In this document: in pieces, positions 7,925-49,378 of the stretch | Numbering within the stretch: the stretch's first letter is position 1 | How the letters are laid out: each line of letters starts with the position of its first letter | Assembly: GCA_023248545.1 (NCBI GenBank) | Contig: JAHFEF010000001.1 | Location: 62,001-126,000, forward strand | Source of the DNA: Myxococcales bacterium | Lineage (GTDB): Bacteria > Myxococcota > UBA727 > JABDBI01 | DNA: 64,000 bases | Direction: 5' to 3' | The notes under the pieces: model-generated | What the model was told of the DNA's origin: nothing | The model's database searches: none | The model's input: the letters and a program-made list of their open reading frames with translations, nothing else | Translations under genes and position numbers: made by a program

Positions 7925-8488
7925 ATGTCTCAGTATGCAAAGCTTTCTTTCTTGATGATCCTGTTGCTCGGTATACCCAACCTGGCCAAGGCCGGCGGCC
8001 CAGGTTGGCAGATAGCGGTCATTACCACTTGTGCTGCGGGTATCACGGCGTTGAATGCTGTGACAGCGGCTTACTCATACAAAGCCCGAGAAGTAATTTT
8101 AAGAGAGGATCCTAACAGTGCGCAAACGCCTCATGTTGAGCGGAGCTTGATGGGTAGTACAGCGGCTTATGGAATTTCAGCGGCTTCTATGGCAGTGGCA
8201 ATGGTTGCGGGGGGCCCCTTCGGATATATCGGAGCTGCTGTCGCGACGGGCTTTTCGGTGGCAGCTTCTGGGGCTTCAGTTTCTGGCATTGTGACGAGTT
8301 CCAGCGCATTTGGGATCGAAGACGAGCACCGTTATGGGCCGGACTCTAAAAAAGGCACTGCCAATTCGGAGTTTCCTGTTGTATTGGGCACTAGCGTTGG
8401 GAGTTTGGTTGCGAATGTTGCTATGACAGGGGTTTATTATGGGTTAACGATGGCGCGAATTATTCAAAGGTCAAGCGCAGGATCATGA
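7925..8488 (+). CDS. Exported/membrane protein, tandem paralogue 1
   Basis: A 187-residue protein with signal peptide MSQYAKLSFLMILLLGIPNLAKA and two or three later hydrophobic, Ala/Gly/Ser-rich segments. I do not recognise the family. It shares a block with the next gene (AAYS, then AR..IL, then HVERSLMG.T), so the two arose by tandem duplication. Its stop overlaps the next start (ATGA). Location is probably inner membrane or periplasm. The divergent neighbour is yidD. Confidence 0.6.
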   Translation: MSQYAKLSFLMILLLGIPNLAKAGGPGWQIAVITTCAAGITALNAVTAAYSYKAREVILREDPNSAQTPHVERSLMGSTAAYGISAASMAVAMVAGGPFGYIGAAVATGFSVAASGASVSGIVTSSSAFGIEDEHRYGPDSKKGTANSEFPVVLGTSVGSLVANVAMTGVYYGLTMARIIQRSSAGS

Positions 8489-9066
8489 TGTCTAGAGTTT
8501 TGTTGATTCTATTTTTGGTTTCCAGTCAGCCAGTCTCGGCGTGCCGTCAGTTCGTAGGACTTTTAACGGCTGTTGCTGCGCCGACGCTGAGTTCTGTCGC
8601 TGCGGCTTACTCGCATCTAGCTCGCCGGGATATTCTGGCCATAGAGTTTCCTTCTAGCAGTGCAGCTCATGTTGAAAGATGCCTCATGGGCAATACAGTT
8701 TTGTTTGCGACGTCCGCAATTCTGACGCTATCCATGCCACCGATTGCCAGTGCCATGAAAGGGGGGCCTCAAAGGCCGCTGGAGGCCATTTCTAAGGTAG
8801 CTCGGTGGATGGTGATTCCAGAACTCGTGACCAGCGGCGTAGCTTTTGGGCTCGGAATTGGGCAGCCCATGGCCACCAACGGAACCAATACAACCGATGA
8901 TTACAAAAAAAATCTGCGCGTCTCATTTGGGACAAGCCTGGGGGCTGTCGTGGCAATTTTATGGACAGCAGCTGTGCATTTGCAGGTTGTGAATAATTAT
9001 CAACCGAGGCGTACGGCCTTGATGGGGCCACTGCAGAGCCTTGGCTCGCAAGAGTCACTGCCTTGA
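8485..9066 (+). CDS. Exported/membrane protein, tandem paralogue 2
   Basis: A 193-residue protein with signal peptide MMSRVLLILFLVSSQPVSA. It shows the same AAYSHLARRDIL and HVERCLMGNT block as its upstream paralogue, then hydrophobic stretches near residues 75-90 and 155-170. The C-terminal 25 residues are polar. Function unknown. The start overlaps the upstream stop by 4 bases, so both proteins are probably made in step. aspS begins 31 bases downstream. Confidence 0.6.
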   Translation: MMSRVLLILFLVSSQPVSACRQFVGLLTAVAAPTLSSVAAAYSHLARRDILAIEFPSSSAAHVERCLMGNTVLFATSAILTLSMPPIASAMKGGPQRPLEAISKVARWMVIPELVTSGVAFGLGIGQPMATNGTNTTDDYKKNLRVSFGTSLGAVVAILWTAAVHLQVVNNYQPRRTALMGPLQSLGSQESLP

Positions 9067-9097: not shown

Positions 9098-10900
9098 ATG
9101 TCTGAATTTCTCACCCAGCACCCCAGAACACACACCTGTGACGTCCTCACCCTCGAAAACTTAGATCAAGAAGTCGTCTTGATGGGCTGGGTGCAGTCTG
9201 TGCGCGATCATGGGGGGCGACGCTTTGTCGACTTGCGTGATCGCTATGGCTTGACCCAGATTGTTTTTAAGCCAGAAACCAGTGCGAGCATGCATGCATT
9301 GGCTCATGAGTTGCGCTCCGAATGGTGCATCGCTGTGCGGGGTCTCGTCGAGGATCGAAGCCTCAACGGCGGTTCACCCAACCCTCGGCTCAAAACAGGC
9401 CAAATCGAAGTAGACGCAAGACAACTCGAGATATTTAGTCAGTCTGAAACACCGCCGTTTTTGATTGAAAATCAAATAGACACGGGTGAAGACAAGCGCC
9501 TGGCACATCGGGTTCTCGATTTGCGACGTCCTAGTTTGCAGGCGAATTTTAAGCTCAGACACGATGTCATGCAGGCGACTCGAAAATATTTTGACGAAAA
9601 TAATTTTCTAGAGCTTGAAACACCGGTGTTGGTCAAATACACGCCGGGCGGTGCGCGTAATTTTCTAGTGCCGAGCCGGCATCAACCCAAAAGCTTTTTT
9701 GCGCTTGCTGAAAGCCCTCAACTATTCAAACAAATGTTCATGATGGCTGGGATGGATCGCTATTTTCAGATCGTGAAATGCTTTCGAGACGAAGACTTGC
9801 GGGGTGACCGACAACCTGAATTTACTCAAATCGATGTCGAGATGAGCTTTGTAGACGAGCGCCAAGTTCAAACCATGGCCGAAGGCTTATTGAAAAGTAT
9901 TTTCAAAAAATCTATTGGCGTCGAGCTCAAAGCACCTTTTCAACGCATGACTTACCAAGAAGCCATGGCCCGTTTTGGGAGCGATAAGCCCGATATCCGA
10001 TTTGGGCTGGAGCATACTGATCTCACTGAGTTGCTTCGAAATTTGAAGGGCGCCGGGGTGCCCTTGTTTGAACAAACATTGGCCAAGCACGGCATGATCA
10101 AAGCCATGCGTGTACCCAAAGCCTGTGAGCTTTCTCGAACCGAAGTCGATAAGCTGGAAGATTTGGTCAAACAACTGGGTGGTTTTGGGCTTGGGCGCGC
10201 CAAAGTGGCTGAGCAGGGCAAGGCTTGGACACAGTCGCCGTTTGCGAAAGTGATCACTCCGGAGGGTTTGGTGCAAATTAATCAAGCTTGTGGGGCAGAA
10301 GACGGCGATTTAATTTTGTTCCAGATGGGCAAGCCGAAAATGGTCCACACAGTGTTGTCGGGTTTACGCACGAACTTAGGAGCTCGATTTGGCTTAATCC
10401 CCAAAAATTCTTGGGGGGTCTTATGGGTGACGGATTTCCCGTTGTTTGAGTATGACGAAGATCAAAAAACGCATTTGGCGGCGCATCACCCGTTTACATC
10501 GCCGCAGATTCAAGATCTAGAACACTTGAAATCAAACCCTGGAGTTTGCAAAGCCCGGGCGTATGATTTGGTGATCAACGGCAACGAAATTGGGGGTGGA
10601 TCGATTCGAATTCATGATTCTATCATCCAATCTAAAGTTTTCGACGCTTTGGGAATTTCGCCAGAAGACCAGCAAGCTAAGTTTGGATTTTTATTGGATG
10701 CGCTGAAATTTGGGCCGCCGCCGCACGGTGGAATTGCTTTTGGACTAGACAGATTGTGTATGCTGCTGGCCGGTGCGACGAGTATTCGCGATGTGATCGC
10801 ATTCCCGAAGAGCCAAAAGGGGACGGATTTACTCACACAAGCGCCTACGCCGGTCGACGACAAGCAGCTTCGCGAGTTGGGGATTATGGTGAGGCCTTGA
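9098..10900 (+). CDS. aspS: Aspartyl-tRNA synthetase, bacterial type
   Basis: A 600-residue class II synthetase. Seen are the N-terminal OB-fold anticodon domain (about 15-115), motif 2 (FRDEDLRGDRQPEF, TQIDVEMSF), the GAD insertion (about 290-420) and motif 3 (GIAFGLDRLCML). Residue His38 in VRDHGG corresponds, by my alignment from memory, to the His found in non-discriminating AspRS such as that of Pseudomonas aeruginosa; discriminating E. coli AspRS has Leu. The enzyme may therefore also charge tRNA-Asn for GatCAB amidation. The 3' end overlaps the convergent amine oxidase by 17 bases. Confidence 0.95.
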   Translation: MSEFLTQHPRTHTCDVLTLENLDQEVVLMGWVQSVRDHGGRRFVDLRDRYGLTQIVFKPETSASMHALAHELRSEWCIAVRGLVEDRSLNGGSPNPRLKTGQIEVDARQLEIFSQSETPPFLIENQIDTGEDKRLAHRVLDLRRPSLQANFKLRHDVMQATRKYFDENNFLELETPVLVKYTPGGARNFLVPSRHQPKSFFALAESPQLFKQMFMMAGMDRYFQIVKCFRDEDLRGDRQPEFTQIDVEMSFVDERQVQTMAEGLLKSIFKKSIGVELKAPFQRMTYQEAMARFGSDKPDIRFGLEHTDLTELLRNLKGAGVPLFEQTLAKHGMIKAMRVPKACELSRTEVDKLEDLVKQLGGFGLGRAKVAEQGKAWTQSPFAKVITPEGLVQINQACGAEDGDLILFQMGKPKMVHTVLSGLRTNLGARFGLIPKNSWGVLWVTDFPLFEYDEDQKTHLAAHHPFTSPQIQDLEHLKSNPGVCKARAYDLVINGNEIGGGSIRIHDSIIQSKVFDALGISPEDQQAKFGFLLDALKFGPPPHGGIAFGLDRLCMLLAGATSIRDVIAFPKSQKGTDLLTQAPTPVDDKQLRELGIMVRP

Positions 10901-12323
10901 TGTTGAACCCGTAGTTGGCATTGAGCGTATTGATGGAAGATTTGTAGGCAGCTTCGCTCCAACCAGAGCGCTTGATATAGTAGGAGTCGCCGAGCAAAGA
11001 AACATCTTCGCCCTCTAAGGGTGCTTTGGCCCATTCGGCGACTTGTTGGTTGGTAAAGTGTGTTCCAGCTTTCAAGTAATACCAACCGGCTGGCCAGATC
11101 TGTACCACAGTTGTTGTAGGTTCTGGAATATCAGCTTTGGGGAACAAATAATGTAGCCCGCGCATGATTTCTCGTTCGACGGATTTTAAACCTTGGCGTT
11201 TGTACGTGTTCTCCCAGAACTGAGTGCAGCGCATGTCGTCGTCGTAGACGCTTCGCATGACATTTTGCTGAACAGCATAAGGGTTAATGGGGATTTCAAG
11301 GGCATTGATACAGCTTTCGGTGGTCCAGGCTCGGCGGACATCTTTGCCGTTATAGCCTGAGTGAAGCCACCAGGGGAAAGGCCATTTTTGGGCAACGGTG
11401 ACGACTTTGATGCCAAAAATATCTTGAAATTGAGGCTTCGCCTGGATCCTCGCTGCAATATCGCCGCCAATGAAGTGAAAAGAGCGTGCGTCAGCAGCAA
11501 TGACGAGGCGCTTCGCTGAAAAAGAATAATGCGGTGTATTCACTAAGTATTGGAACATGCCCACATGTTTTGAGATGGTTTGAGCGGGTTCTGACAGATA
11601 GATTTGTGTGCCCTGATTCTGAGCCAATTTCGCCATCTGTCGAATAAACGCCGACATGCCACCCACTGGGTAATAGGCATTGCAACAGGCACCTATTTCT
11701 TCATCTAAATAATCAAGATAAGATCGTGGATCGAGTGGTGTTTCAAATTCGGCTCGAAAGCGGGAGATATCACTTAAAAACTGGTGGGCTTGTGTCCCCA
11801 ATGTTGCGCGAATATAGGAACGTAAGTCGGGAAAATCTTGAGCGTGATTGCGTTCTGGCCCTAACCTCAGTTTGTTGTAAAAAGCATCTTCTGTGCCGTG
11901 GCCTGTCTGATTCACAAACTCTTTGGTGAGCAAGGGGTAGGCAGAGTTGTTGATATCGTCCGACCCGAATGCAAAAAATCCCCGAGCGCTGTTTAAGTCG
12001 TCTCGATAGGGAGCATATTCAAGTGTCACACCGATTTCCTGGGCGAGGGTTCGAAGATAGTTCTGTGACTCCATGACACGCAGAGCCCCCATGCCGTAGC
12101 GCCAGTCTGGGTGTTCTGGGTCTAATGCGACGTCGTAGAGCCGGCCGCCCAGCCTGTTTTCTTTTTCGATCAGGCAAATATTCGAATTTGGGCGTTTGGA
12201 TAACTGGTAGGCTGTGTGTAATCCGCCAGGTCCGCCGCCGATGACCAGGACATCGCAGTTGATATTCTGTTTGGCGGCATCGGCGTAGAAAGCGAGTAAC
12301 AGCGCAATAATTTTGAGAGCCAT
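10884..12323 (-). CDS. Exported flavin-containing amine oxidase/NAD(P)-binding protein
   Basis: A 479-residue FAD protein. An N-terminal signal peptide (MALKIIALLLAFYADA) is followed at residues 24-40 by the dinucleotide-binding motif VLVIGGGPGGLHTAYQL and then ENRLGGRLYD, the second FAD motif of the amine oxidase/protoporphyrinogen oxidase group. The C-terminus has SLLGDSYY and SGWSEAAYKSS, matching the usual FAD-covering GD and WxEGA region. It lies 6 bases downstream of the exported EutB-EutC fusion and should be cotranscribed with it. The substrate is unknown; a primary amine or amino acid is plausible from context. FAD enzymes with Sec-type signals are uncommon but known. Confidence 0.75.
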   Translation of the reverse strand: MALKIIALLLAFYADAAKQNINCDVLVIGGGPGGLHTAYQLSKRPNSNICLIEKENRLGGRLYDVALDPEHPDWRYGMGALRVMESQNYLRTLAQEIGVTLEYAPYRDDLNSARGFFAFGSDDINNSAYPLLTKEFVNQTGHGTEDAFYNKLRLGPERNHAQDFPDLRSYIRATLGTQAHQFLSDISRFRAEFETPLDPRSYLDYLDEEIGACCNAYYPVGGMSAFIRQMAKLAQNQGTQIYLSEPAQTISKHVGMFQYLVNTPHYSFSAKRLVIAADARSFHFIGGDIAARIQAKPQFQDIFGIKVVTVAQKWPFPWWLHSGYNGKDVRRAWTTESCINALEIPINPYAVQQNVMRSVYDDDMRCTQFWENTYKRQGLKSVEREIMRGLHYLFPKADIPEPTTTVVQIWPAGWYYLKAGTHFTNQQVAEWAKAPLEGEDVSLLGDSYYIKRSGWSEAAYKSSINTLNANYGFNIKASP

Positions 12324-12329
12324 AGGCTC

Positions 12330-14453
12330 TTATTGCGGGATTGTTGCAAGTTTGGTGAGGTTTCTAAGAAGCTCTACAGTTTGCCTCGCTGCTTCTTTTG
12401 GATCTAAGCTTGTATCGGAAATCCCGGAAATCAATTTGGCATGATTGTGATCAACCGTTCCAGGCTTGCTCCACATTTTGACTGTCGGTGAAACAATATA
12501 AGCCGAGAAAGTTTGATGGCCGTTGCCGGGACGCTCGCCGATAATATGAATCACAGCTTTTTGTTGAGAATCAGGGCCGCTTTTGTCAAATAAAATCTCG
12601 CCAACTTGATAGCCAGCCCGTACGCGGCCTCCAAGAATTATGAGATTTTCAGGCGCCGCGTGATAGCCGTTGCTATCTAAGACTCGGCGTAGTTCGATCA
12701 AATAGGGTTCTAAGTGTCCGGGGTCCATAATCGCATTGGCATTCAAGCCGTCTGATATAACAATCTGGACGTTGTATTGAGTCTGGCGCAGGGCTTTGAG
12801 CTGAGCTTCTGACTCTTTCGAGAGCTTCTCACCCGTGGGCGGATGTCCAATATAATCAGACCGATTTTTTGAAAGCGTTTTTAGAATTACGGAATTTGGG
12901 ATTGTTTTAATAAATTCAGGTGACATCTCAGTCCAGATGCTCTTTTTGGCGTCGTCATACAGTGCGTGAATTTGCTTGTCTAATTCGGGTTGACCCCTAT
13001 CGAGTGGGACACCTCGAGCTTGAATGGCCTGGGCGATTTTTTGGCCTTCGGCGTAGATCTCAGCCTGAGGTCGTTTGTCACCCTTATAAAATTTATATTG
13101 CGTATAGACCCAGACGGGGTCCCCAAAATGCTCATAGACTTTTATTTTGTTAAAAAACGCCTGCATGTCGTCGTTGATTTTATAGCCAAATTGATTTCGA
13201 ATTCTTACATGATCTCTAAAAGAAGTCGTTAGATAGCTCAGCATGGGGTCGTTTCGGGTGGGCAGTGCCATGAGATAAGCGGGGTTTGCAGGCATAATTT
13301 GATCCTGACACCATTCTAAATCATCGAGGGATACCGACATGTGCAGTGTGCTGCAGATATCGAGGCCAATTGTCAAGCCGTGCAATTTGCCCATGACAAT
13401 ATCTTCCAAACAAACTCGAACCAATTGCTCTTTGGTTTTAAAAATTTCAGGGCCAATAAATCCAGCGACGTCATTTAAAATCACCCAGGCTGTTTGGTGC
13501 TTCATGGCCCTGGCCAGGCCATATTTGCGGGACTCATGGACCACCATGTCAAAGCCGTGGCCGTGTTGATTGGTGAAATCGGCGCCTTGGCCTGTTTCCA
13601 AATAAAATCCGTGTTTTAAATTCTTGCGTTGTGTCGCATAGCGGATCATCTTTTGGGTAGAGATGCCGAAAGTTTTGTTAGCGTCTTCGACACCGCCAAT
13701 GCTTTGGAAAAACAAGTCTGTACTGCCGGGATGCGCTTGTTCGACGGCCTGTTGGACATCTACATGTGCGAGCACGCACCAGGCGAGAATATCTTGAAGC
13801 TTAAAAGTTTCGATAATATCTTTGAGCGTGCTTTCTACCCGGTACACCGACTCAGGCGTGCTATCGACGGGATTGTTGCCGAGCAAAACATCGCCGACTC
13901 CGTATGAGAAGCCATTGAAGACCTGCCATGCGATTTCTTCGGGATTATCTGTGGGAGAGTTGGGTTGAATGCGAGCACCCATGTAGCCCTTGGAGCCGAT
14001 TTTGCTGTCTGGCAGGGGATTAAATACCGTTTGACCGACTTTGATCAGCTCCTGGTTGCTCATGAGTTTGACGACACTGGCAATCACATCGCTGTCTAAG
14101 CCGGGCATGATTTGTTTGATTTTCTCTTCAGGCTGCGTCAGCAAGAAAGTCTTGAGTTCACCCAGGGTCCAGTTTTTGATGATTTGATAAGCTTTTGGGT
14201 CTGTATCTTGCCAAATCAGCGCTTGTTGCTCATCTCGATAGACGGGATGGTCATGAATATACGAGATTTTGATTTGGCTGAGGCGTTTTCTGGCACGCGT
14301 GCGCTCGGTGTTGTTTTTCGCAGCAACACCGACCGCAACATCACCTTCTTTGAATTCGTTGGCGTGGCCAAGCAATTGGGCGAGATCTTTTGGGGCTGCC
14401 AGGCCCGGAAACCCAACCAGAGCGATGAGCCAGAAAAAAGAGAATTTTGTCAT
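12330..14453 (-). CDS. Ethanolamine ammonia-lyase EutB-EutC fusion with signal peptide
   Basis: A 707-residue fusion of both subunits of the adenosylcobalamin enzyme that turns ethanolamine into acetaldehyde and ammonia. Residues about 20-475 are EutB. The substrate residues of the E. coli enzyme have counterparts Arg161 and Gln163 (ARIQPN), Asn194 (GNNPVD), Glu286 (LETGQG) and Asp365 (GLDICSTL). Residues about 555-707 are EutC, with VISDGLNANA, GRVRAGYQVGEIL and IIGERPGNG. Unlike cytosolic EutB it begins with a convincing signal peptide, MTKFSFFWLIALVGFPGLAA. No in-frame Met lies between the signal and the EutB core, so the start is hard to move. No eutA reactivase or cobalamin gene is nearby. 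Confidence 0.85.
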   Translation of the reverse strand: MTKFSFFWLIALVGFPGLAAPKDLAQLLGHANEFKEGDVAVGVAAKNNTERTRARKRLSQIKISYIHDHPVYRDEQQALIWQDTDPKAYQIIKNWTLGELKTFLLTQPEEKIKQIMPGLDSDVIASVVKLMSNQELIKVGQTVFNPLPDSKIGSKGYMGARIQPNSPTDNPEEIAWQVFNGFSYGVGDVLLGNNPVDSTPESVYRVESTLKDIIETFKLQDILAWCVLAHVDVQQAVEQAHPGSTDLFFQSIGGVEDANKTFGISTQKMIRYATQRKNLKHGFYLETGQGADFTNQHGHGFDMVVHESRKYGLARAMKHQTAWVILNDVAGFIGPEIFKTKEQLVRVCLEDIVMGKLHGLTIGLDICSTLHMSVSLDDLEWCQDQIMPANPAYLMALPTRNDPMLSYLTTSFRDHVRIRNQFGYKINDDMQAFFNKIKVYEHFGDPVWVYTQYKFYKGDKRPQAEIYAEGQKIAQAIQARGVPLDRGQPELDKQIHALYDDAKKSIWTEMSPEFIKTIPNSVILKTLSKNRSDYIGHPPTGEKLSKESEAQLKALRQTQYNVQIVISDGLNANAIMDPGHLEPYLIELRRVLDSNGYHAAPENLIILGGRVRAGYQVGEILFDKSGPDSQQKAVIHIIGERPGNGHQTFSAYIVSPTVKMWSKPGTVDHNHAKLISGISDTSLDPKEAARQTVELLRNLTKLATIPQ

Positions 14454-15264: not shown

Positions 15265-15369
15265 CCCAAATTCAACAGGAGTCACCTAACGCTTGAAGTT
15301 GGAGAAATTTGAGGTATGAGAGGATTGATTTTTAGACCATGACGACGGTTGTTTTCTGAGGAGTCATTT

Positions 15370-15660
15370 ATGAAAGTGGTATTGTTTTTGTTTTGTTTAC
15401 TCGCTTTTCAAGCAGATGCAGGTTACGATCAGGCTTATACTGTCGAACGCTTGCAAGGAATTCTCAATCAAGCGGCTGTACACTTTGGTAGCAACCCAAG
15501 AATGTTGCAGCTGCAGGTTGGTGGGGCTGTTATAAACAAAGAAAATGGACGATTGAAGGCGGAAGTATATGTGTGTTATAAAAATAATAAGCCGATTTAT
15601 AGTCAGGTGTCGGCTTTACTCAGTGGCAAGATTTTTTTAATAAAACCGTGTGAAAAGTAA
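15370..15660 (+). CDS. Small exported protein, copy 1
   Basis: A 96-residue protein: signal peptide MKVVLFLFCLLAFQADA, then about 78 residues with YTVERLQGILNQA and a C-terminal YSQVSALLSGKIFLIKPCEK. No family is recognised. The ATG at 15370 follows GAGGAGT. Copy 2 lies 48 bases downstream and is about 60% identical. The mature part has two cysteines (YVCYK, KPCEK), absent from copy 2, so the copies may differ in disulfide formation. Confidence 0.6.
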   Translation: MKVVLFLFCLLAFQADAGYDQAYTVERLQGILNQAAVHFGSNPRMLQLQVGGAVINKENGRLKAEVYVCYKNNKPIYSQVSALLSGKIFLIKPCEK

Positions 15661-15708
15661 AGATCCATTTTTAGACCATGACGACGGTTATTTTCTGAGG
15701 AGTCCTTG

Positions 15709-15996
15709 ATGAAAGTGGTATTATTTTTGTTTTGTTTGCTCGCTTTTCAGGCAGATGCAGGTAACGATCAGGCTTATACTGTCGAACGCTTGCGAGCAAT
15801 TTTCCGTCAAGCGTTTGTGCTCTTTGATAAAAATCCAAGAAGTCTGAAGCAGTATGTTAAAGGGGTTTTAATAAAAAAAGATATGTTTAATAAGCAATTG
15901 GAAGCGGAAGTATATGTGCTTGAAAATCAGCGGCGGATTTATAGTCAGGTGTTGGCTTTACTCAGTGGCAGGATTTTTTTAATAAAACCGGTGTGA
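15709..15996 (+). CDS. Small exported protein, copy 2 (altered C-terminus)
   Basis: A 95-residue paralogue of the preceding gene with the same signal peptide and the same leader and ribosome site. The last codons differ: an additional G (ACCGGTGTGA here versus ACCGTGTGA in copy 1) shifts the frame, so this copy ends in KPV while copy 1 ends in KPCEK. The middle third is diverged and more basic. Function unknown. It is convergent with the exported protein at 16040. Confidence 0.58.
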   Translation: MKVVLFLFCLLAFQADAGNDQAYTVERLRAIFRQAFVLFDKNPRSLKQYVKGVLIKKDMFNKQLEAEVYVLENQRRIYSQVLALLSGRIFLIKPV

Positions 15997-16039: not shown

Positions 16040-17308
16040 TCACGGTTCAGATGACCCAACATGTCTTCTTGCAGCACATTTTCCCGCAATGATTTTTCCT
16101 ATCACATAGAACACATTGATCGCAATTACGGATCCGACGGTTGCGCCTGCAGAAATCCCGGCAGCCGTGTTGTATCTATCTCTCGCCAGCGCTTCTCTGG
16201 AATTCGCTTGATCAGAATTGTTTTTGGCCTGGGCTTCTGCGGTTTCAAGAAGAGGTAATTCGAGTTGATATTGTGCTAGATTGGTCGCAGTCACATTCTT
16301 CTTCTGTTCATAAAAACCGGCTGTAGCATTCATCACGACGGGAAGTGTCTCAGAACACCGATCCTTAACAAACTGAACCACAGACAATGCCGTTTCGTTA
16401 AAACCCTTGGTTTTATCCACCACAAATTTCAATCCCTGGGATAGGAGTTTCCCATCGAAAGTAAAATTGTACACCACCGCGGTTGTGTATTGTTTCCAAT
16501 CTTTATAGTGAGTTCGATCGCCTCTATCCCAACTTTCTCGAAGAAATTCTTCTTGGCTGGTAAATCCTAAGATTTCATTATAGGCATTGCAGCCTGTCTC
16601 TGTTCTGGTTTGCCCCCGAATTGCTGTACCAGCCCTTACATCAAAAACATCTGTTGTGCGTGTATAATCAAAAACTTGTCTGGTTTTCGTCACCGTTCTC
16701 ACACAAGTATCATACCTGTACCTAGTGCAGGTATAACTGTATCCGTTAGAGTCGGCACAGGTCGTTAGGTAAGGCTTTTGACAACTATAAGTTTCTACGT
16801 CTTGATAAGTTTCTGTTCTATAGATCGGTTCACTGCTCGAACTCATGCTGTCTTGCGCTTGATAGGTCTCTAACCCATAGGTGGTTTTAATAAATTCGAT
16901 GGCATTGCTGATACTCACTTGACTGAAATTCGGTTGACAAATAAATCTTGTGTAATCCTGAAAAGATGTGAGATGTCCTAGAGCACAATCCAAATCAGAA
17001 ATCTCTGTAATTGCGCTAGAAATTTGATCTTTCTTATCGTTTGTTACCTGAATTTTATTCCTCAGAATCGCATCCATCTCACTGCTTTCACTCTCTGCAG
17101 CGTCGAGCGACGCTTTTTTATCAAGGGCATTTTTGATTGTAGGGCCCATGCTGATCCCAAGAGCCCCTAAATTAAGCACCGTCAAGGCAACAGCGTCTTT
17201 CCAAGTCCACCTGCTCGAGGCTTTGGCTGTATTGGGATAGGCTAACAAAAAAAAGATCAGGAAAAATATGTTCAAATAACTCAGTGTTCGCATCGATTTC
17301 AGGAACAT
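16040..17308 (-). CDS. Exported or membrane-anchored protein of unknown function
   Basis: About 422 residues. A signal or anchor helix (YLNIFFLIFFLLAYPNTAKA) opens the protein. A Tyr/Thr/Cys-rich central part contains YSCQKPYLTTCADSNGY and a dense run of aromatic and Thr/Arg residues. A glycine-rich transmembrane segment, AGISAGATVGSVIAINVFYV, lies near the C-terminus and is followed by a basic tail. I recognise no family. ATG 17308 was chosen; the frame stays open upstream through the palindromic element, giving about 60 Arg/Lys-rich residues that look like translated repeat and not protein. It lies inside the direct-repeat-flanked islet. Confidence 0.6.
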   Translation of the reverse strand: MFLKSMRTLSYLNIFFLIFFLLAYPNTAKASSRWTWKDAVALTVLNLGALGISMGPTIKNALDKKASLDAAESESSEMDAILRNKIQVTNDKKDQISSAITEISDLDCALGHLTSFQDYTRFICQPNFSQVSISNAIEFIKTTYGLETYQAQDSMSSSSEPIYRTETYQDVETYSCQKPYLTTCADSNGYSYTCTRYRYDTCVRTVTKTRQVFDYTRTTDVFDVRAGTAIRGQTRTETGCNAYNEILGFTSQEEFLRESWDRGDRTHYKDWKQYTTAVVYNFTFDGKLLSQGLKFVVDKTKGFNETALSVVQFVKDRCSETLPVVMNATAGFYEQKKNVTATNLAQYQLELPLLETAEAQAKNNSDQANSREALARDRYNTAAGISAGATVGSVIAINVFYVIGKIIAGKCAARRHVGSSEP

Positions 17309-17347
17309 TCTAGAAATAGTGTTGATTCCAAAAAGATCGAGGCCCAT

Positions 17348-17533
17348 TCTTCTCCCAGGCCTGCCCGTGCGCTTTGCGCCCGCGTATGCCTGGGCTACCG
17401 CCAATCGTCGCCGCTTACAGCGGCTTCCCTGTTTGCCTTCCGATTCCGGTTTGGAGCCTGCAAGGCGCTGACTTGCCAGTAGCCCAGGCAAAAATCAGCG
17501 AGCCTGCGAGCTGATTGCAGGCCTGGGAGAAGA
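17348..17533. repeat. 186-bp GC-rich palindromic multi-stem element
   Basis: The ends are a perfect 16-bp inverted repeat, TCTTCTCCCAGGCCTG (17348-17363) against its complement at 17518-17533. Inside is a second perfect 12-bp pair, TGCCTGGGCTAC (17387-17398) with 17479-17490. Smaller hairpins are GCGC-TTT-GCGC (17369-17379), GCCGCT-TAC-AGCGGC (17410-17424) and ATCAGC..GCTGAT (17493-17514). The fold is a closing stem leading into a multi-branch junction. Its GC content clearly exceeds that of the flanks. It could be a MITE-like repeat, a recombination site or the gene of a structured RNA; on the minus strand it would be the leader of the gene starting at 17308. Confidence 0.6.
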
Positions 17534-40973: not shown

Positions 40974-41512
40974 CCGGTGGTCCCGGCGCTGGAAAAACAA
41001 CGGTGCTTGACATGGTCAAGCACATGTTTATGGATAACGTGGTGGTTTTACATGAAGCCGCGAGCATGATTTATAACGGCGGTTTTATGAGGCGCTCGAC
41101 CCCGAGTGGCATTCGGGCAGCTCAACGAGCGATTTATCATATTCAGCGCGAGCAAGAACGCATTTTGGAAGAAGACGGCCAAACGCGCCTGGGTCTTTGT
41201 GATCGGGGCACTCTCGATGGTTTGGCCTATTGGCCCGGTGCCCCCGAAGAATTTTTCAGAGATCTGCATACCACCGAAGAGGCTGAATTGGCACGCTATG
41301 CCATGGTGATCCATATGCGCACGCCGAGCATGGAACACGGTTATAACAATAACAACCCAGCTCGGATTGAGGCACCTGAAATGGCTGCGAAGCTAGATCA
41401 AAAAATGATCGATATTTGGAAGCGGCATCCGAATCATTTTATTGTGGACAGCCGTCAGGATTTTTTACATAAGGCTGAAGAAGTTGTTGGGATTGTTTCT
41501 AAATTAATATGA
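40931..41512 (+). CDS. AAA_28-like NTP-binding protein
   Basis: A 193-residue P-loop protein: LIVLTGGPGAGKTTVLDMV (Walker A), LCDRGTLDGLAYW and VIHMRTPSMEHGYNNNNPAR. It resembles the AAA_28/NadR kinase-like group, whose members act as small-molecule kinases or GTP/ATP switches. ATG 40931 has GGAAGA 3 bases upstream and gives overlaps of 43 bases with the aminotransferase and 4 with the next gene. In this operon it might phosphorylate the cyclitol product, but there is no direct evidence. Confidence 0.75.
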   Translation: MPKLHQGHPKLIVLTGGPGAGKTTVLDMVKHMFMDNVVVLHEAASMIYNGGFMRRSTPSGIRAAQRAIYHIQREQERILEEDGQTRLGLCDRGTLDGLAYWPGAPEEFFRDLHTTEEAELARYAMVIHMRTPSMEHGYNNNNPARIEAPEMAAKLDQKMIDIWKRHPNHFIVDSRQDFLHKAEEVVGIVSKLI

Positions 41513-42336
41513 AAAAAGTGTTTTTTGTTTTTATTTGCGCTGCTAATTTCGCGTGGGCTGAGAATTTTTTTGAGTTTTGCTGGAAACGAGTGCCCAATGG
41601 CCAAGAAATTCTGTTGGACGCTGGCATTGAAGCCCCCATCGATTTGCTTTTGGGTGACTATACGAAAGCCTTGGGTCATAACCCTTCTGCAAAAGCTGTC
41701 TTAAGAGATGCCATGAAACTTCCGAGTGCTTTGGTAAAAGCCGGGACAGGTACCCGAGTGGGCGGTACTGAGTTTGTTTTTGATCGCAGTCAAGTTTACA
41801 GCCAGCTTTCAAAGACAATTCTCAAGGGGGGTGGGACGGTGATGTTGGTGACCGTTTTTGAAATGCCTGCGAAGCACGCAGCTGTTTGGGCGAATTATCC
41901 GGGAGATATCATGGCGCGTTATTTGGTGAAAGCGGGTCAATACCGTCAAAAAGAAAATTCAACGCGGTCGTTTGAAGAATATTTGTTTCAAGAATCTGAA
42001 CCTGGTTGGTGGGTGGATACGTTGTTGGAAGTAGGTCCCAAGATATTGGTATGTAATCGGGTAGGTGCGCTCGTCGAAAAGGCACAATTGGGGATGACGG
42101 TCCGAAGTGGCGTTGTTCATATGGCCAATCGGCTGGCGGGTACTCATATTAATCCCAGCGATACCTTTTGGAAGAATGCGAAGACGCGGGGGCCACTTGT
42201 TTTCGCCATCATGACCGCCGCGTATTTTTTCGAGAAGATTGCAGTAACGTATGTGATGGCGCCAGCTGCCCGCATTACGATGGATGGAATTACTGAGTTA
42301 GCCAAATATCTCAAAGGCAGCCACGACGAGCTATGA
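41509..42336 (+). CDS. Exported protein of unknown function
   Basis: A 275-residue protein with signal peptide MKKVFFVFICAANFAWA, then a mature part with TGTRVGGTEFVFDRSQVYS and hydrophobic stretches near residues 230-245 (LVFAIMTAAYFFEKIAV). It is the last gene of the GH3-ino1 operon, overlapping the NTPase by 4 bases and the convergent permease by 6. No family recognised; it could be lipid-associated or a membrane accessory of the pathway. Confidence 0.62.
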   Translation: MKKVFFVFICAANFAWAENFFEFCWKRVPNGQEILLDAGIEAPIDLLLGDYTKALGHNPSAKAVLRDAMKLPSALVKAGTGTRVGGTEFVFDRSQVYSQLSKTILKGGGTVMLVTVFEMPAKHAAVWANYPGDIMARYLVKAGQYRQKENSTRSFEEYLFQESEPGWWVDTLLEVGPKILVCNRVGALVEKAQLGMTVRSGVVHMANRLAGTHINPSDTFWKNAKTRGPLVFAIMTAAYFFEKIAVTYVMAPAARITMDGITELAKYLKGSHDEL

Positions 42337-43766: not shown

Positions 43767-44141
43767 ATGTGGAGAGTTTGGATATTAGGCTTGTTGGTTT
43801 CAATGCAAGTGCTCGCAGTTTTGCCAGACCTAGAGTTTCTAGTGGTCACGCAGAATTCAAGTGATGCTCAAGCAGAACAAGATGGCTACTGGACAGCTCT
43901 GGCGATGCCTTCTGAGAGGCCGACGGTGGATCAATTGATGAGAGAATTTCTATTTGGACTCAATCAAATTGAGGTGTTTAATGCGTTTAATGTGTTGCGT
44001 GAACACGTTGAGGCAAGAACAGAGTTGGAAGGAGAGTATCCAGATCGACTAGAACGGTTGAGTGAAATTAGGAGGCTGCTAGCAACACAGCAAGTACGCC
44101 TCGAAATTATCCGCCGGCGCCTCCTAATTTGCCGAGCTTAG
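43767..44141 (+). CDS. Small exported protein
   Basis: A 124-residue protein with signal peptide MWRVWILGLLVSMQVLA and an acidic then Arg/Leu-rich helical C-terminus (RLERLSEIRRLLATQQVRLE) that may form a coiled coil. ATG 43767 has TGAGG upstream. No family is recognised. Its 3' end overlaps the convergent FAAL fusion gene by 18 bases. Confidence 0.55.
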   Translation: MWRVWILGLLVSMQVLAVLPDLEFLVVTQNSSDAQAEQDGYWTALAMPSERPTVDQLMREFLFGLNQIEVFNAFNVLREHVEARTELEGEYPDRLERLSEIRRLLATQQVRLEIIRRRLLICRA

Positions 44142-46982
44142 CAGGTTGGCTGTCTGCCGGATCTGGTTTTCCTGGTGTTCTGAAGTAACAAACACCCTCA
44201 GGCGCGAGAGCCGGTCTTCGACCGCAGGGTAAATAATGGGCCGAATATTCACACCTTGTGACAGAAGCAATTCCGACTTTTTAAGCGTGTCGAGCGAGTT
44301 GCCAATAATAATGGGTATGACCGGCGAGTTTTGACTCAAGCCGGTGTCAAGGCCTTTGGACTTGCACAGCGATAAGAAGAGCTTCGAGTTGTTCATCAGA
44401 CGCTGAATGCGCTCTGGCTCGCGTTCTAGAATCTCAAAAGCCTTGAGCGCAGCGGCCGCATTGGGCGGCGAAATACCGACACTGTAGACAAAGCCGGGCG
44501 ATGTATAACGCAGGTACTCGATAATTTCTCGCTTGCCGGCGATATAACCCCCACAACTGGCAAGGGCTTTGCTGAGTGTGCCCATCCAAAAATCGATTTT
44601 ATTGGGATCAATGCCAGCATACTCAGAAAGACCTCGGCCTGTTTTTCCGAGTACGCCAATTGAGTGCGCCTCGTCGACCATCAAATAGGAATTAGAGCGC
44701 TGTTTTAAATCAACGTAGGCACCTAAATCAGGAATATCACCGTCCATGCTGTAGATGCCTTCAATAATCATCAAAGTGCGCTGAAAACGATGCCTGTGTT
44801 GGGCCAGTAAGCGTTCTAGGCTTTTGGGGTCGTTATGTGCAAATGGCATTGCGCGCGCGCCAGAGAGTTTGCAGCCTTCTAGAATGCTGTTGTGACTCAG
44901 CGAATCATGTAAAATTAAATCGCCAGGTCCAAATAAATGTCCGATCGTACTGACATTGGTTGCATGGCCTCCGACGTAAACAATGCTGTCTTCGACGCCG
45001 ATAAACTCAGCGATTTTGTGTTCGAGTTGCTGGTGCAAAACACGTTCTCCAGCAACCAAACGGCTGGCTGACACGCTGGTGCCATAGCGGTCGATGGCTT
45101 CTTTGGCCGCTTCTGAGACTTCGGGGTGGCCCGCTAAGCCGACATAATTATAGTTTGAAAACTGGACCAGTGATGAATCCTCGAGCGCATGAAAAAATGG
45201 GTTTTTAATACCAGCGGCTTCGAGTGCTTTAAATTGTTCTTGAATGCTCCAAGGTGTTATTTGGGGCGCTTGAGGCTTGGCAGACTGAGTGTTTCTCAGC
45301 ATGGACAGCGTGGTTTTTTCGTCGATTTGGGTGTCAGCGGGCAAATTAAGGGTTGCCAAGAGTTCTTGGCGCATCAGAGAATCTAAGCCGTAGTTCACCA
45401 ACGGTTGGTGCTCGTCGACGTCAGCAAAGCTTTCTAAACCCAGGATGCTTTTGACTTGCGAGGCAGTCGATACCAATTCGCGTGCGGCATAGCGTTGGAT
45501 TTTACCGCTTGAAGTTTTGGGGATGGTTTTGGGTGGCAGTAATTTAATAATTTCAGCACGTAGGTCAAATTCCAAACTAACGCGTCGTTGAATATCTTGA
45601 ATTGTCTGATCAGACAGGTTGTCATCTGAAATTTCTGCGACGATGCCTAGGGACTCTGTTGTAGCGCCGGGTAGTGAGAACGCTGCCACACAGCCTTTTC
45701 GAATGTTGGAATTGGCTTGTTCGACGCAGTGTTCGATGTCCTGTGGATAATAATTTCTTCCCCGAATAATAATCAGGTCTTTTTTTCGGCCTGTGATATA
45801 GAGCTCACCCTCTTCGATAAAACCGAGATCTCCTGTATACAAGTAATCTCGAAATACCAGTTTGTTGTCTTCTGGTTTGTTAAAATAGCCCTGAGCGACG
45901 CAGTCATTTTTGACACAGATTTCGCCGTCCCTAATTTGGACCATGTCGGGCTTGCTAATTTTACCGCAGCTCACAAAATTGCCCTGAACTTTGGCGAGCC
46001 CCGTGGGCATGCCGCCGCAGACCAATAAGGTCGCCTCGGCCAGGCCATAACAAGGATAGAAAGCGGACATGCGAAAGCCACACGGCTTAAAGCGGTCTGC
46101 AAAGTTTAGGAGGGTGTTGAATTGGATGGGTTCCGCACCGTTGGCGGCGATATTCCAATGACTCAAGTCAAGTTGTTTGATTTGGCTATCGGTGATGCGC
46201 CGTGTGCATAAATCATAGGCAAAATTAGGTGCCGCGCTGATATAACCCCGGGTCTCAGAAAGTGTTTTGAGCCACTTAAATGGGTTGGACAAAAAATCCA
46301 GTGGCGACATGAGATAGCCCGTAAATCCAGTGAACATGGGTTGTAAAATTCCGCCGATGAGTCCCATATCATGGTAAGGCGGTAACCAAGAGACGCTGGG
46401 GGTCTCGCTGGAAAGTCCAACGGTGTGCTGAGCAAAAGCCGCGTGCGACAGCAGATTTTTATGCGTGAGCATGACGCCTTTCGGCGAGCCTGTTGATCCC
46501 GATGTGTATTGTAAGAAGGCCAGTGAGTTTTGACTGATTTCTGGAACTCGCCAAGACGATGCATAGTGGCTATCAATTTGATCGGTGGCAATCCAATTGC
46601 CGGGGATATTAGACTCGCCAAACGATTGGATCATAGAGGTCGACAAGATTGCTTTGGCTTCGCAGTCTTCGATAATGCTCATGAGTCTGGGCAGTGTTCT
46701 ATCTAATCGACTGGGATCGGGCGGGTAAGCAGGAACGGCCACGACGCCAGCATATAAACAACCGAAAAAAGCGATGACATAATCAAGGCTGGGCGCATAT
46801 AGGAGCAAAGCCCTTTCGCCAGCTAAATTGTGTTTGCGTAATACAGCTGCCAAGGCTCTGGCTTTTAAATCGACCTCAGCATACGTCAGGCGGTATTTTG
46901 AGTCGTCACTTTCAATGAATTCGTAAGCCAAGCGATGAGGGAACTCTCTAGCACGTGATTGGCAGACCTGTACAAACGTCAT
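44124..46982 (-). CDS. Fatty acyl-AMP ligase / ACP / alpha-oxoamine synthase fusion
   Basis: A 952-residue three-domain protein. Residues about 1-500 are a fatty acyl-AMP ligase (YTSGSTGSPKGVMLTH, SWLPPYHDMGL, YGLAEATLL, YTGDLGF). Residues about 505-570 are an acyl carrier domain with the phosphopantetheine serine in NYGLDSLM. Residues 577-952 are an AONS/serine palmitoyltransferase-type PLP enzyme (HDSLSHNSIL, VDEAHSIGVLG, Lys805 in GTLSKALAS). The ligase would load a fatty acid on the ACP and the PLP domain would condense it with an amino acid to an alpha-amino ketone, as in sphingoid base, sulfonolipid or CqsA-type signal synthesis. ATG 46982 follows trmB by 4 bases. Confidence 0.88.
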   Translation of the reverse strand: MTFVQVCQSRAREFPHRLAYEFIESDDSKYRLTYAEVDLKARALAAVLRKHNLAGERALLLYAPSLDYVIAFFGCLYAGVVAVPAYPPDPSRLDRTLPRLMSIIEDCEAKAILSTSMIQSFGESNIPGNWIATDQIDSHYASSWRVPEISQNSLAFLQYTSGSTGSPKGVMLTHKNLLSHAAFAQHTVGLSSETPSVSWLPPYHDMGLIGGILQPMFTGFTGYLMSPLDFLSNPFKWLKTLSETRGYISAAPNFAYDLCTRRITDSQIKQLDLSHWNIAANGAEPIQFNTLLNFADRFKPCGFRMSAFYPCYGLAEATLLVCGGMPTGLAKVQGNFVSCGKISKPDMVQIRDGEICVKNDCVAQGYFNKPEDNKLVFRDYLYTGDLGFIEEGELYITGRKKDLIIIRGRNYYPQDIEHCVEQANSNIRKGCVAAFSLPGATTESLGIVAEISDDNLSDQTIQDIQRRVSLEFDLRAEIIKLLPPKTIPKTSSGKIQRYAARELVSTASQVKSILGLESFADVDEHQPLVNYGLDSLMRQELLATLNLPADTQIDEKTTLSMLRNTQSAKPQAPQITPWSIQEQFKALEAAGIKNPFFHALEDSSLVQFSNYNYVGLAGHPEVSEAAKEAIDRYGTSVSASRLVAGERVLHQQLEHKIAEFIGVEDSIVYVGGHATNVSTIGHLFGPGDLILHDSLSHNSILEGCKLSGARAMPFAHNDPKSLERLLAQHRHRFQRTLMIIEGIYSMDGDIPDLGAYVDLKQRSNSYLMVDEAHSIGVLGKTGRGLSEYAGIDPNKIDFWMGTLSKALASCGGYIAGKREIIEYLRYTSPGFVYSVGISPPNAAAALKAFEILEREPERIQRLMNNSKLFLSLCKSKGLDTGLSQNSPVIPIIIGNSLDTLKKSELLLSQGVNIRPIIYPAVEDRLSRLRVFVTSEHQENQIRQTANLLSSAN

Positions 46983-46986
46983 GCGC

Positions 46987-47493
46987 CTATTTGTAGAGCA
47001 AGGTGCGATAGATTGGCAAGCCGGCTTCTTCGCATTTTTTTTCACGATGAGATTTTGCGCCGAGCGGGTTTTTATCACATGGCAGCTTGGTGAGTTTAGA
47101 CTCTAGGAGTACTTGATAGACTTCGAAGAGCTCTAAAACATCGCTTTGGAAAAAGAACTGGCCGCCAGGTCTAAGCAGCGATACGAGTAAATTGAGAAAC
47201 GGCTCATTCAAGACGCGGCGCTTTTTGTGTCGCTTTTTCCACCAGGGGTCAGGGAAGTTCAAGATAATCAGGCTTAAGCAGTCGGGTTTGAATAGTTGGG
47301 GAACGATTTCCCAAGCGTGGCCGTGAAGGGGCGTAATATTATAAATCTGCTCACGTTGTTGTTTGCGAAGGGCTTGCTCCACCCAACGAGCTTTGTATTC
47401 AATGCCAATAATTTGGTGGTTGGGTTGAACAGCAGCGCGTTCAAATAAAAAATGGGCTCGGCCCATACCGATTTCAAGTTCAATGGGGGTCAT
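46987..47493 (-). CDS. trmB: tRNA (guanine-N7)-methyltransferase
   Basis: A 168-residue SAM enzyme making m7G46 in tRNA. Seen are ELEIGMGRAHFLFE (SAM loop), GIEYKARWVEQAL, LIILNFPDPWWKKRHKKRRVL (signature) and FFFQSDVLELFEV. It lacks the N-terminal 40-50 residues of E. coli TrmB, as many bacterial versions do. Start ATG 47493; a G-rich stretch of a palindromic repeat lies just upstream and may serve as the ribosome site. Confidence 0.9.
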   Translation of the reverse strand: MTPIELEIGMGRAHFLFERAAVQPNHQIIGIEYKARWVEQALRKQQREQIYNITPLHGHAWEIVPQLFKPDCLSLIILNFPDPWWKKRHKKRRVLNEPFLNLLVSLLRPGGQFFFQSDVLELFEVYQVLLESKLTKLPCDKNPLGAKSHREKKCEEAGLPIYRTLLYK

Positions 47494-47559: not shown

Positions 47560-48306
47560 ATGCGCATTTGGGGTATCAGTGATTTGCATTTGTCTTTTTC
47601 GTCCAACAAACCGATGGATGTTTTTGGGTCTCATTGGCGAGGTCATGCGGAGCGTATGGCTGAATCTTGGGATAGATTGGTGGCCCCTGAAGATGTCGTG
47701 TTGTGCCCTGGTGATCTTTCATGGGCCATGCGCCTGGAAGAAGCCAAGTTAGACCTAGAGTGGATTGGTAATCGCCCCGGGTTAAAAATTCTAGGTCGCG
47801 GCAATCATGATTATTGGTGGAGCAGCATTGGTAAGGTCAGAGCGGCTTTGCCAAAAACCTGTGTTGCTTTGCAAAACGACTGCTATGATTTGGGGTTTGC
47901 CGTCGTGGCTGGAAGCCGTTGTTGGTCTGCGCCCGGGGCGTTGGATTATACCGAGCAAGACAGAAAAATTTATGAGCGCGAGTGTTTGAGACTTAAAATG
48001 TCTTTGGAATCGGCTCAGAAAATTGCCCAGGGTCGACCCATTATTGCAGCGATTCATTACCCGCCGTTTGCGGCCAACCATGGGCCTACAGGTTTTTCAG
48101 AATTATTAGAAGCATTTCAGGTTCAACTTTGTGTGTATGGGCACTTGCACGGCGAGCGTTCTCATAGAACCGCCGTGCAAGGCAATGTCCGGGGGATCGA
48201 ATATCGCATGTTGTCTTGTGATTATTTGAATTTCACACCTAAGCTGTTGGCTAATACTTTGAGTGCTGCCAATGTGCTCCAGCCAACCCAATTATTGGTC
48301 CAGTGA
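47560..48306 (+). CDS. Metallophosphoesterase
   Basis: A 248-residue calcineurin-like phosphoesterase with all five metal blocks: GISDLHL, LCPGDLSWAM, GRGNHDYWW, AIHYPPF and YGHLHG. No signal peptide, so cytosolic. Members act on nucleotides, UDP-sugars or phosphoproteins; the substrate here cannot be told. The ATG at 47560 was used; the frame is open upstream through the palindrome. Its last 85 bases overlap the convergent phospholipase-like gene. Confidence 0.85.
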   Translation: MRIWGISDLHLSFSSNKPMDVFGSHWRGHAERMAESWDRLVAPEDVVLCPGDLSWAMRLEEAKLDLEWIGNRPGLKILGRGNHDYWWSSIGKVRAALPKTCVALQNDCYDLGFAVVAGSRCWSAPGALDYTEQDRKIYERECLRLKMSLESAQKIAQGRPIIAAIHYPPFAANHGPTGFSELLEAFQVQLCVYGHLHGERSHRTAVQGNVRGIEYRMLSCDYLNFTPKLLANTLSAANVLQPTQLLVQ

Positions 48307-49322
48307 CGATCATTGGGGTTTTTTAAGTCAACCCGACGCATGAGCTGTTCAGTGGTTGGATCCCAGTAGAACATGGGGGCGATATCGAGCGATCCGTTGG
48401 GGCCTATTTCGTCGGCCTCAGGGATCAAATCAAGCTCGTGGTAGATTGTCGGAGCTTGTTTGGCAACGAAGGCCTCGTACACGTCGTTGGCTGACATTTG
48501 GAGTGCCTGCTGCATGAGGGTTAAATTCTTGTGGTTCTCGGGATCTAGATAATGGCCGTCGCCATAGGCCACCCAGTGATCGCCTTGTGCATTATGAACA
48601 TGTAAGCCGTGCATGCACTCTTCATTGTGCATGAAGTGGCCCAACAAAGATCCGACGACTCCTGGGGTAACCTGGTTGGGTAATTCGACCCGGGGAAGCC
48701 GTAGGTGACCTGAAGAAAAATGATCAGTCAGGAAGTGGTTGGCAAAAGCGTTGATGGCATAAGCACGTTCAAGAGCCTGGGTATCCTGTGCTTTGCCAGC
48801 TTCAACGGCTGCTTCTAAGGCCAGTGAATGGCCCGCAACGTAGGCCTTGAGAGCGTTATCACCGAAGTGGTCATAGTCTGTCTCGGCGAGCAATAGATAG
48901 CGACCTGGAGTAAGCCACCAGAAACTGCCAGAACAGGCACCTCCTGTTAGGCAATTCCATAGCACGCTTTGATCTTCAGCGGTTGGGTTGTTGTGAATCG
49001 CTGTGACAATGCGCGTGGCTTCATCGACGGACTCTGGGATATTGACGAGTGAATTAAAAGCTTCCATAAATAGAGCTTTGCGTTGTTCGAGATCTGAACC
49101 CTGAGAAATTGGTGCGCCGGGAACACCATAAAAGTCGCCCATGGCAATGATTTCTCCAAAGGTCAAAACAAGGCCATTTTGCAAATGCAATCGCTTCTCT
49201 GAAGTTCCTTGAAGCGTGATAGCATCGCCTGCAAACGCATGTTCGAACGATTCGAATCGGGCATGGTAGTCGGCATGTAGATGAACAGAAAACAGGGCAA
49301 TCAACAGGCAATATCTAGACAT
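48222..49322 (-). CDS. Exported phospholipase C-like zinc metalloenzyme
   Basis: A 366-residue protein with signal peptide MSRYCLLIALFSVHLHA. The core carries MGDFYGVPGAPISQG, HFGDNALKAYVAGHSLALE and INAFANHFLTDHFSSGHLR, His/Asp clusters resembling zinc phospholipases C of the Legionella/Pseudomonas phosphatidylcholine-hydrolysing kind. It would act outside the cytoplasm on phospholipids. ATG 49322 has GGAG upstream. The long antisense overlap (85 bases) with the phosphoesterase gene is unusual. Confidence 0.65.
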   Translation of the reverse strand: MSRYCLLIALFSVHLHADYHARFESFEHAFAGDAITLQGTSEKRLHLQNGLVLTFGEIIAMGDFYGVPGAPISQGSDLEQRKALFMEAFNSLVNIPESVDEATRIVTAIHNNPTAEDQSVLWNCLTGGACSGSFWWLTPGRYLLLAETDYDHFGDNALKAYVAGHSLALEAAVEAGKAQDTQALERAYAINAFANHFLTDHFSSGHLRLPRVELPNQVTPGVVGSLLGHFMHNEECMHGLHVHNAQGDHWVAYGDGHYLDPENHKNLTLMQQALQMSANDVYEAFVAKQAPTIYHELDLIPEADEIGPNGSLDIAPMFYWDPTTEQLMRRVDLKNPNDRHWTNNWVGWSTLAALKVLANSLGVKFK

Positions 49323-49378
49323 AGAAGCACTCCTGTCGAATTCGTAGCACATAGGTTTTATGACTGCCTATCGGTCAT

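Follow-up and report, generated by a model that had tools for sequence, protein, structure and literature searches.

Adenosylcobalamin (AdoCbl) radical enzymes are held to be strictly intracellular and to depend on a reactivase; those acting on ethanolamine usually need a microcompartment as well. Reductive dehalogenases (RdhA), which are corrinoid enzymes exported by Tat, set a precedent for B12-type enzymes located outside the cytoplasm. Unlike EutBC, they are not adenosylcobalamin radical enzymes, have an unrelated fold, and carry iron-sulfur clusters. In Pelobacter carbinolicus, strains of which ferment ethanolamine, Pcar_0467 and Pcar_0491 are fused EutBC proteins with 70% identity; the fusion is unusual and eutA is absent (PMC3543383). 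The fusion and the missing eutA are already known for this species (PMC3543383), and the new part is export of EutBC, inferred here. Neither export nor a leader of EutBC is mentioned in the sections of PMC3543383 that bear on the protein, and no report of an exported or periplasmic EutBC was found in the open-licence PMC literature searched.

Genome G175 (3,665,893 bp in one contig), which we take to be that of P. carbinolicus (Syntrophotalea carbinolica in the alternative genus naming) because it matches the published description of Pcar_0467/Pcar_0491, has exactly two EutBC copies. They are 70.8% identical, and the 28 kb that separate them contain cobalamin genes. Both carry Sec leaders and adjoin solute-binding proteins (SBP_bac_6), an unnamed membrane protein, and cobalamin riboswitches. 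The protein studied here shares clade, fusion, and kind of leader with Pcar_0491/Pcar_0467. The P. carbinolicus proteins differ in a longer segment between leader and core and in their clustering with genes for cobalamin synthesis, a solute-binding protein, and transport.

Fusion, domains, and active site

The window, which is the whole 64,000-nucleotide stretch of DNA analyzed, encodes a leader-bearing, fused EutBC ethanolamine ammonia-lyase of 707 aa (12330..14453, minus strand). PF06751 and PF05985 occur in this single ORF, which is uninterrupted and has zero internal stops. The EutB domain, the catalytic half that handles substrate and radical, spans residues 22–442 (13128..14390, minus strand; Pfam E = 3e-143, 478 bits against a cut-off of 25) and the EutC domain spans residues 496–701 (12351..12968, minus strand; E = 4e-33, 115 bits against a cut-off of 25.8). 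The protein passes the NCBI EutB subfamily model and misses the cut-off of the NCBI EutC equivalog (87 vs. 230 bits). Its EutC half retains the SDGLN, GRVRAG, and GERPG motifs common to canonical EutC, yet is divergent. Among solved structures, the closest are the two chains of ethanolamine ammonia-lyase, heavy (EutB) and light (EutC). AlphaFold2 applied to the window protein together with four relatives yielded a mean pLDDT of only 46, too low to be informative. No second EutB was found in the window's own genome (1.78 Mb, 93% complete).

Catalytic roles are known for residues R160, Q162, N193, E287, F329, D362, M392, and L402 of Escherichia coli EutB. The equivalents in the window protein are R161, Q163, N194, E286, F332, D365, M395, and L405. 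Across 38 exported sequences, the equivalents of R160, Q162, N193, E287, F329, D362, and L402 are invariant, and that of M392 is Met or, in five sequences, Ile. The E. coli EutB/EutC structure (PDB 3ABO) has both domains, the matched active-site residues, and the EutC motifs in common with the window protein, which differs in being fused and leader-bearing, in lacking EutA and a microcompartment, and in having ∼35% identity in EutB. The fusion and the intact active site are shown, and two claims of the first-pass annotation hold, namely, that both subunits are joined in one chain (Pfam, single ORF) and that the catalytic residues are conserved.

An exported protein could nonetheless be something other than a lyase, such as a periplasmic binder or scavenger of cobamides, or could act on another amino alcohol. 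The Pelobacter genes and a Geobacterales relative cluster with cobalamin biosynthesis genes, riboswitches, and a corrinoid-type ABC transporter (PMC3543383), the reactivase is missing, and EutC is divergent, all of which favor this alternative. However, the exported clade shows no variation at the matched active-site positions for substrate and radical, which is improbable for a pure binder, and P. carbinolicus, a reported ethanolamine fermenter, has only these EutBC copies. We consider this alternative unlikely and favor an ethanolamine ammonia-lyase, with activity and AdoCbl binding inferred.

Leader, start site, and neighbors

The first ∼20 or 21 residues of the window protein form a Sec-type signal peptide, MTKFSFFWLIALVGFPGLAAP (14391..14453, minus strand), called from hydropathy, the relative in genome G006, and absence of TatC. 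The leader has a single Lys, a hydrophobic stretch, and possible small-x-small cleavage sites near residues 19–20. It therefore satisfies the Sec criteria of N-terminal positive charge, hydrophobic core, and cleavage motif, with one positive charge only. The criteria for Tat are unmet; the leader is without RR and TatC was not found in the 93%-complete genome. Absence of TatC from its own genome leaves Sec as the only route for this leader, although incompleteness of the assembly leaves room for missing genes. The best 10-residue mean hydropathy is 2.52. By the same measure, ∼2.1 is the highest value among window genes with no appearance of export, every other gene scoring 2.39 or more looks exported, and the N-termini of leaderless EutBs, fused and unfused, range from −0.15 to 1.73. 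Leader calls throughout are based on hydropathy, motif, start site, and comparison; SignalP was not used.

Four codons upstream of the ATG, an in-frame stop makes a longer start impossible. Between M1 and residue 120, the only further start codons are TTG-27, TTG-104, and ATG-116, and the conserved EutB core (HANEFKEGD) begins at about residue 30. TTG-27 has no Shine-Dalgarno sequence, and the gene's own ATG has no strong one. In G006, of the same family, a relative with 67% identity, truncated by the contig end, has a leader (MYKFMVGLLGILISLPTLALHKK; hydropathy score of 2.85) of the same design but with different letters. The first-pass annotation had described a clear signal peptide, which is upheld by hydropathy, motif, upstream stop, and comparison, and the leader is shown on these grounds. 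Its statement that there is no internal Met is correct as far as residue 116; TTG-27 is an alternative in theory, but a weak one. Its proposed refutation, close homologues whose start lies past the leader and has an intact ribosome site, is not borne out, as the G006 protein starts with a different and equally typical leader.

Six bases past the EutBC stop starts a gene for an FAD-dependent, amine-oxidase-like flavoprotein of 479 aa (10884..12323, minus strand; PF01593, E = 1e-15) with a Sec-like leader, MALKIIALLLAFYADA (hydropathy score of 2.73). Its nearest solved relatives are L-lysine/amine oxidases, over the first ∼75 residues only. The spacing makes it possible that the flavoprotein is an operon partner of EutBC, with their relation not shown, and the two may conceivably be an exported pair of ammonia-releasing, amine-degrading enzymes. 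The link is weak because no homologue of the flavoprotein was found in the seven EutBC-carrying or related genomes searched.

Several other predicted exported proteins in the window had no match among the Pfams scanned (7925–9066, plus; 15349–15996, plus; 16040–17491, minus; 41509–42336, plus; and 48222–49352, minus). Among them, similar small ones form a tandem pair at 15349 and 15706. A 984-residue ORF (44124–47078, minus) has two domains, one for AMP-binding adenylation and one of the class I/II aminotransferase type.

Leaders across relatives and their history

Fused relatives with 50–68% identity occur in Desulfuromonadia, throughout Myxococcaceae, and in one more family of Myxococcota type; we infer from genome sizes and clades that the phylum is Myxococcota. 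N-termini were read for 73 copies, one more being excluded because it is cut at its contig start, and start sites of relatives were picked partly by hand. By leader, 28 copies are Sec, six are Tat, 24 are Tat and also have a lipobox cysteine, and 15 are leaderless. A leader is present in each of the 31 readable Desulfuromonadia copies, although one (L048) has no canonical start codon within the stretch read, and in 27 of 42 Myxococcota copies, the remaining 15 being those without. Nearly all leader ATGs in Desulfuromonadia have a Shine-Dalgarno of 5–6 bases, and in most copies the later starts are without one. On plasmids, 25 fused copies were found; the two from Sinorhizobium that were read (S. 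meliloti and S. terangae), which sit on symbiotic plasmids, both have twin-arginine leaders (e.g., MSKRLFSRQRDGLTRRDLLLMAG). Sec is used by most Desulfuromonadia and by the window protein, Tat by a few Desulfuromonadia, some Myxococcota, and Sinorhizobium, and Tat-lipoprotein leaders are found in Myxococcaceae. Relatives such as L010, L038, and L116 meet the Tat criteria. The leader is a trait of the clade and not a peculiarity of the window, as hydropathy, motif, start-site, and comparative evidence show; conservation in the clade, a check proposed in the first-pass annotation, is borne out by export signals that recur via Sec, Tat, and Tat-lipoprotein routes in relatives from three bacterial phyla.

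Near these genes, two further observations were made. A protein with multiple membrane spans is conserved beside exported EutBC (L098, 6850–7674; L099, 15401–16249; L003, 8157–9026); scanning its two Pelobacter copies assigned neither to a Pfam family, and it is a possible functional partner. Genes for large, GH94-type glycoside phosphorylase-like proteins lie near the Tat-leader EutBC of both Sinorhizobium plasmids (L116 and L117). A lead in the Sinorhizobium literature was merely O-phosphoryl-ethanolamine in a phenotype table and was set aside.

In a tree built on leader-free columns, the leader-bearing clade has 100% support and leaderless fused EutBCs fall outside. Leader state changes three times in all, consistent with a single gain followed by two losses within Myxococcaceae. 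The route changes between Sec and Tat at least twice, with some of the branches concerned not strongly supported. The tree fits a history in which export was gained once by an already fused, leaderless ancestor and was followed by at least one Sec/Tat switch. Since fusion preceded the leader, a single leader was able to carry both halves. The window protein groups with that of G006 and then with two sequences from Geobacterales MAGs (91/99), not with Myxococcaceae copies, from which we infer transfer between lineages. Retention of export while the export machinery switched is, in our judgment, probably the strongest sign of selection for a place outside the cytoplasm.

Alternatively, the leader could be real while the enzyme does its work in the cytosol, either because export is inefficient or because translation starts internally (at TTG-27 in the window). 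Some Myxococcaceae copies lack a leader, and TTG-27 immediately precedes the conserved core. Against this, TTG-27 lacks a Shine-Dalgarno, as do later starts in most relatives; the type of leader switches while the capacity for export stays; and some leaders combine a twin arginine with a lipobox cysteine, which is hard to read except as an export signal. This alternative is very unlikely for the leader-bearing copies. The 15 leaderless Myxococcota copies do imply that the enzyme is evidently able to work in the cytoplasm too.

Reactivase, cofactor, and place of catalysis

A true EutA was not found in the tested hosts of exported EutBC. Most genomes have EutA matches that are short and lie inside ORFs of 410–490 aa; these were attributed to the FtsA/actin fold and left out of the count, and the window genome has just one such short, probably FtsA-like match. 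Genome G075, which has unfused EutBC, has a full EutA adjoining and shell genes on the same contig. No microcompartment shell genes were found in the window genome or in tested clade hosts, with the exception of G089, which has two shell-domain matches. Absence of EutA and, with that one exception, of a shell is shown for the tested hosts. The canonical eut system, with EutA and a cytosolic or microcompartment location, is therefore not matched in the window, which has no true EutA, no shell, and a leader. The first-pass annotation had described EutBC as a cytosolic or microcompartment enzyme in need of a reactivase, and the absence of reactivase and microcompartment is borne out.

The N-terminal hydrophobic stretch could instead be a peptide for encapsulation in a microcompartment. 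Canonical EutC bears an N-terminal compartment-targeting peptide, and G089 has its two shell-domain matches. However, the window genome and the other tested clade hosts are without a shell protein, and Tat and lipobox motifs are present among the leaders. This explanation is all but excluded, and the stretch is best read as an export signal.

The window genome encodes a cob(I)alamin adenosyltransferase and two proteins with B12-binding domains, and no match to CobS was found in it (93% complete). Retention of the former without CobS suggests that the organism probably imports cobamides.

We suggest that the window protein is likely an extracytoplasmic, AdoCbl-dependent ethanolamine ammonia-lyase, with location, AdoCbl binding, source of cofactor, activity, and physiological role inferred. 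One leader on the fused chain would take both halves across the Sec translocase together. The chain would fold in the periplasm and bind adenosylcobalamin that crossed the outer membrane or was otherwise delivered, and ethanolamine would there be split into acetaldehyde and ammonia. These neutral products would diffuse inward, such that neither an importer of ethanolamine nor a microcompartment would be needed and acetaldehyde would be made outside the cytoplasm. Where relatives have a Tat leader, export could be of folded enzyme with its cofactor already loaded. The reactivase EutA depends on ATP, which it could not use outside the cytoplasm; in its absence, enzyme that has become inactive would presumably be replaced and not repaired. 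A difficulty for export is that the route by which intact, light-sensitive AdoCbl reaches a Sec-exported apoenzyme is unexplained. The first-pass proposal of an exported radical B12 enzyme is supported by comparison, with export, AdoCbl content, and activity remaining inferences.

A bolder reading, toward which we lean slightly, is that the whole clade of AdoCbl radical lyases in Desulfuromonadia, Myxococcota, and Sinorhizobium is extracytoplasmic, with periplasm or membrane replacing the strategy of a microcompartment; the Tat lipoproteins might then sit on a membrane. Export can be tested directly because some of the organisms are in culture, among them Sinorhizobium meliloti, which has the Tat version on symbiotic plasmids. 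If P. carbinolicus exports the only EutBC proteins that it has, its ethanolamine is cleaved outside the cytoplasm, and the ethanolamine pathway drawn for this species would change. If true of the clade, AdoCbl would be available and usable outside the cytoplasm, and aldehyde toxicity would be manageable by location instead of encapsulation.
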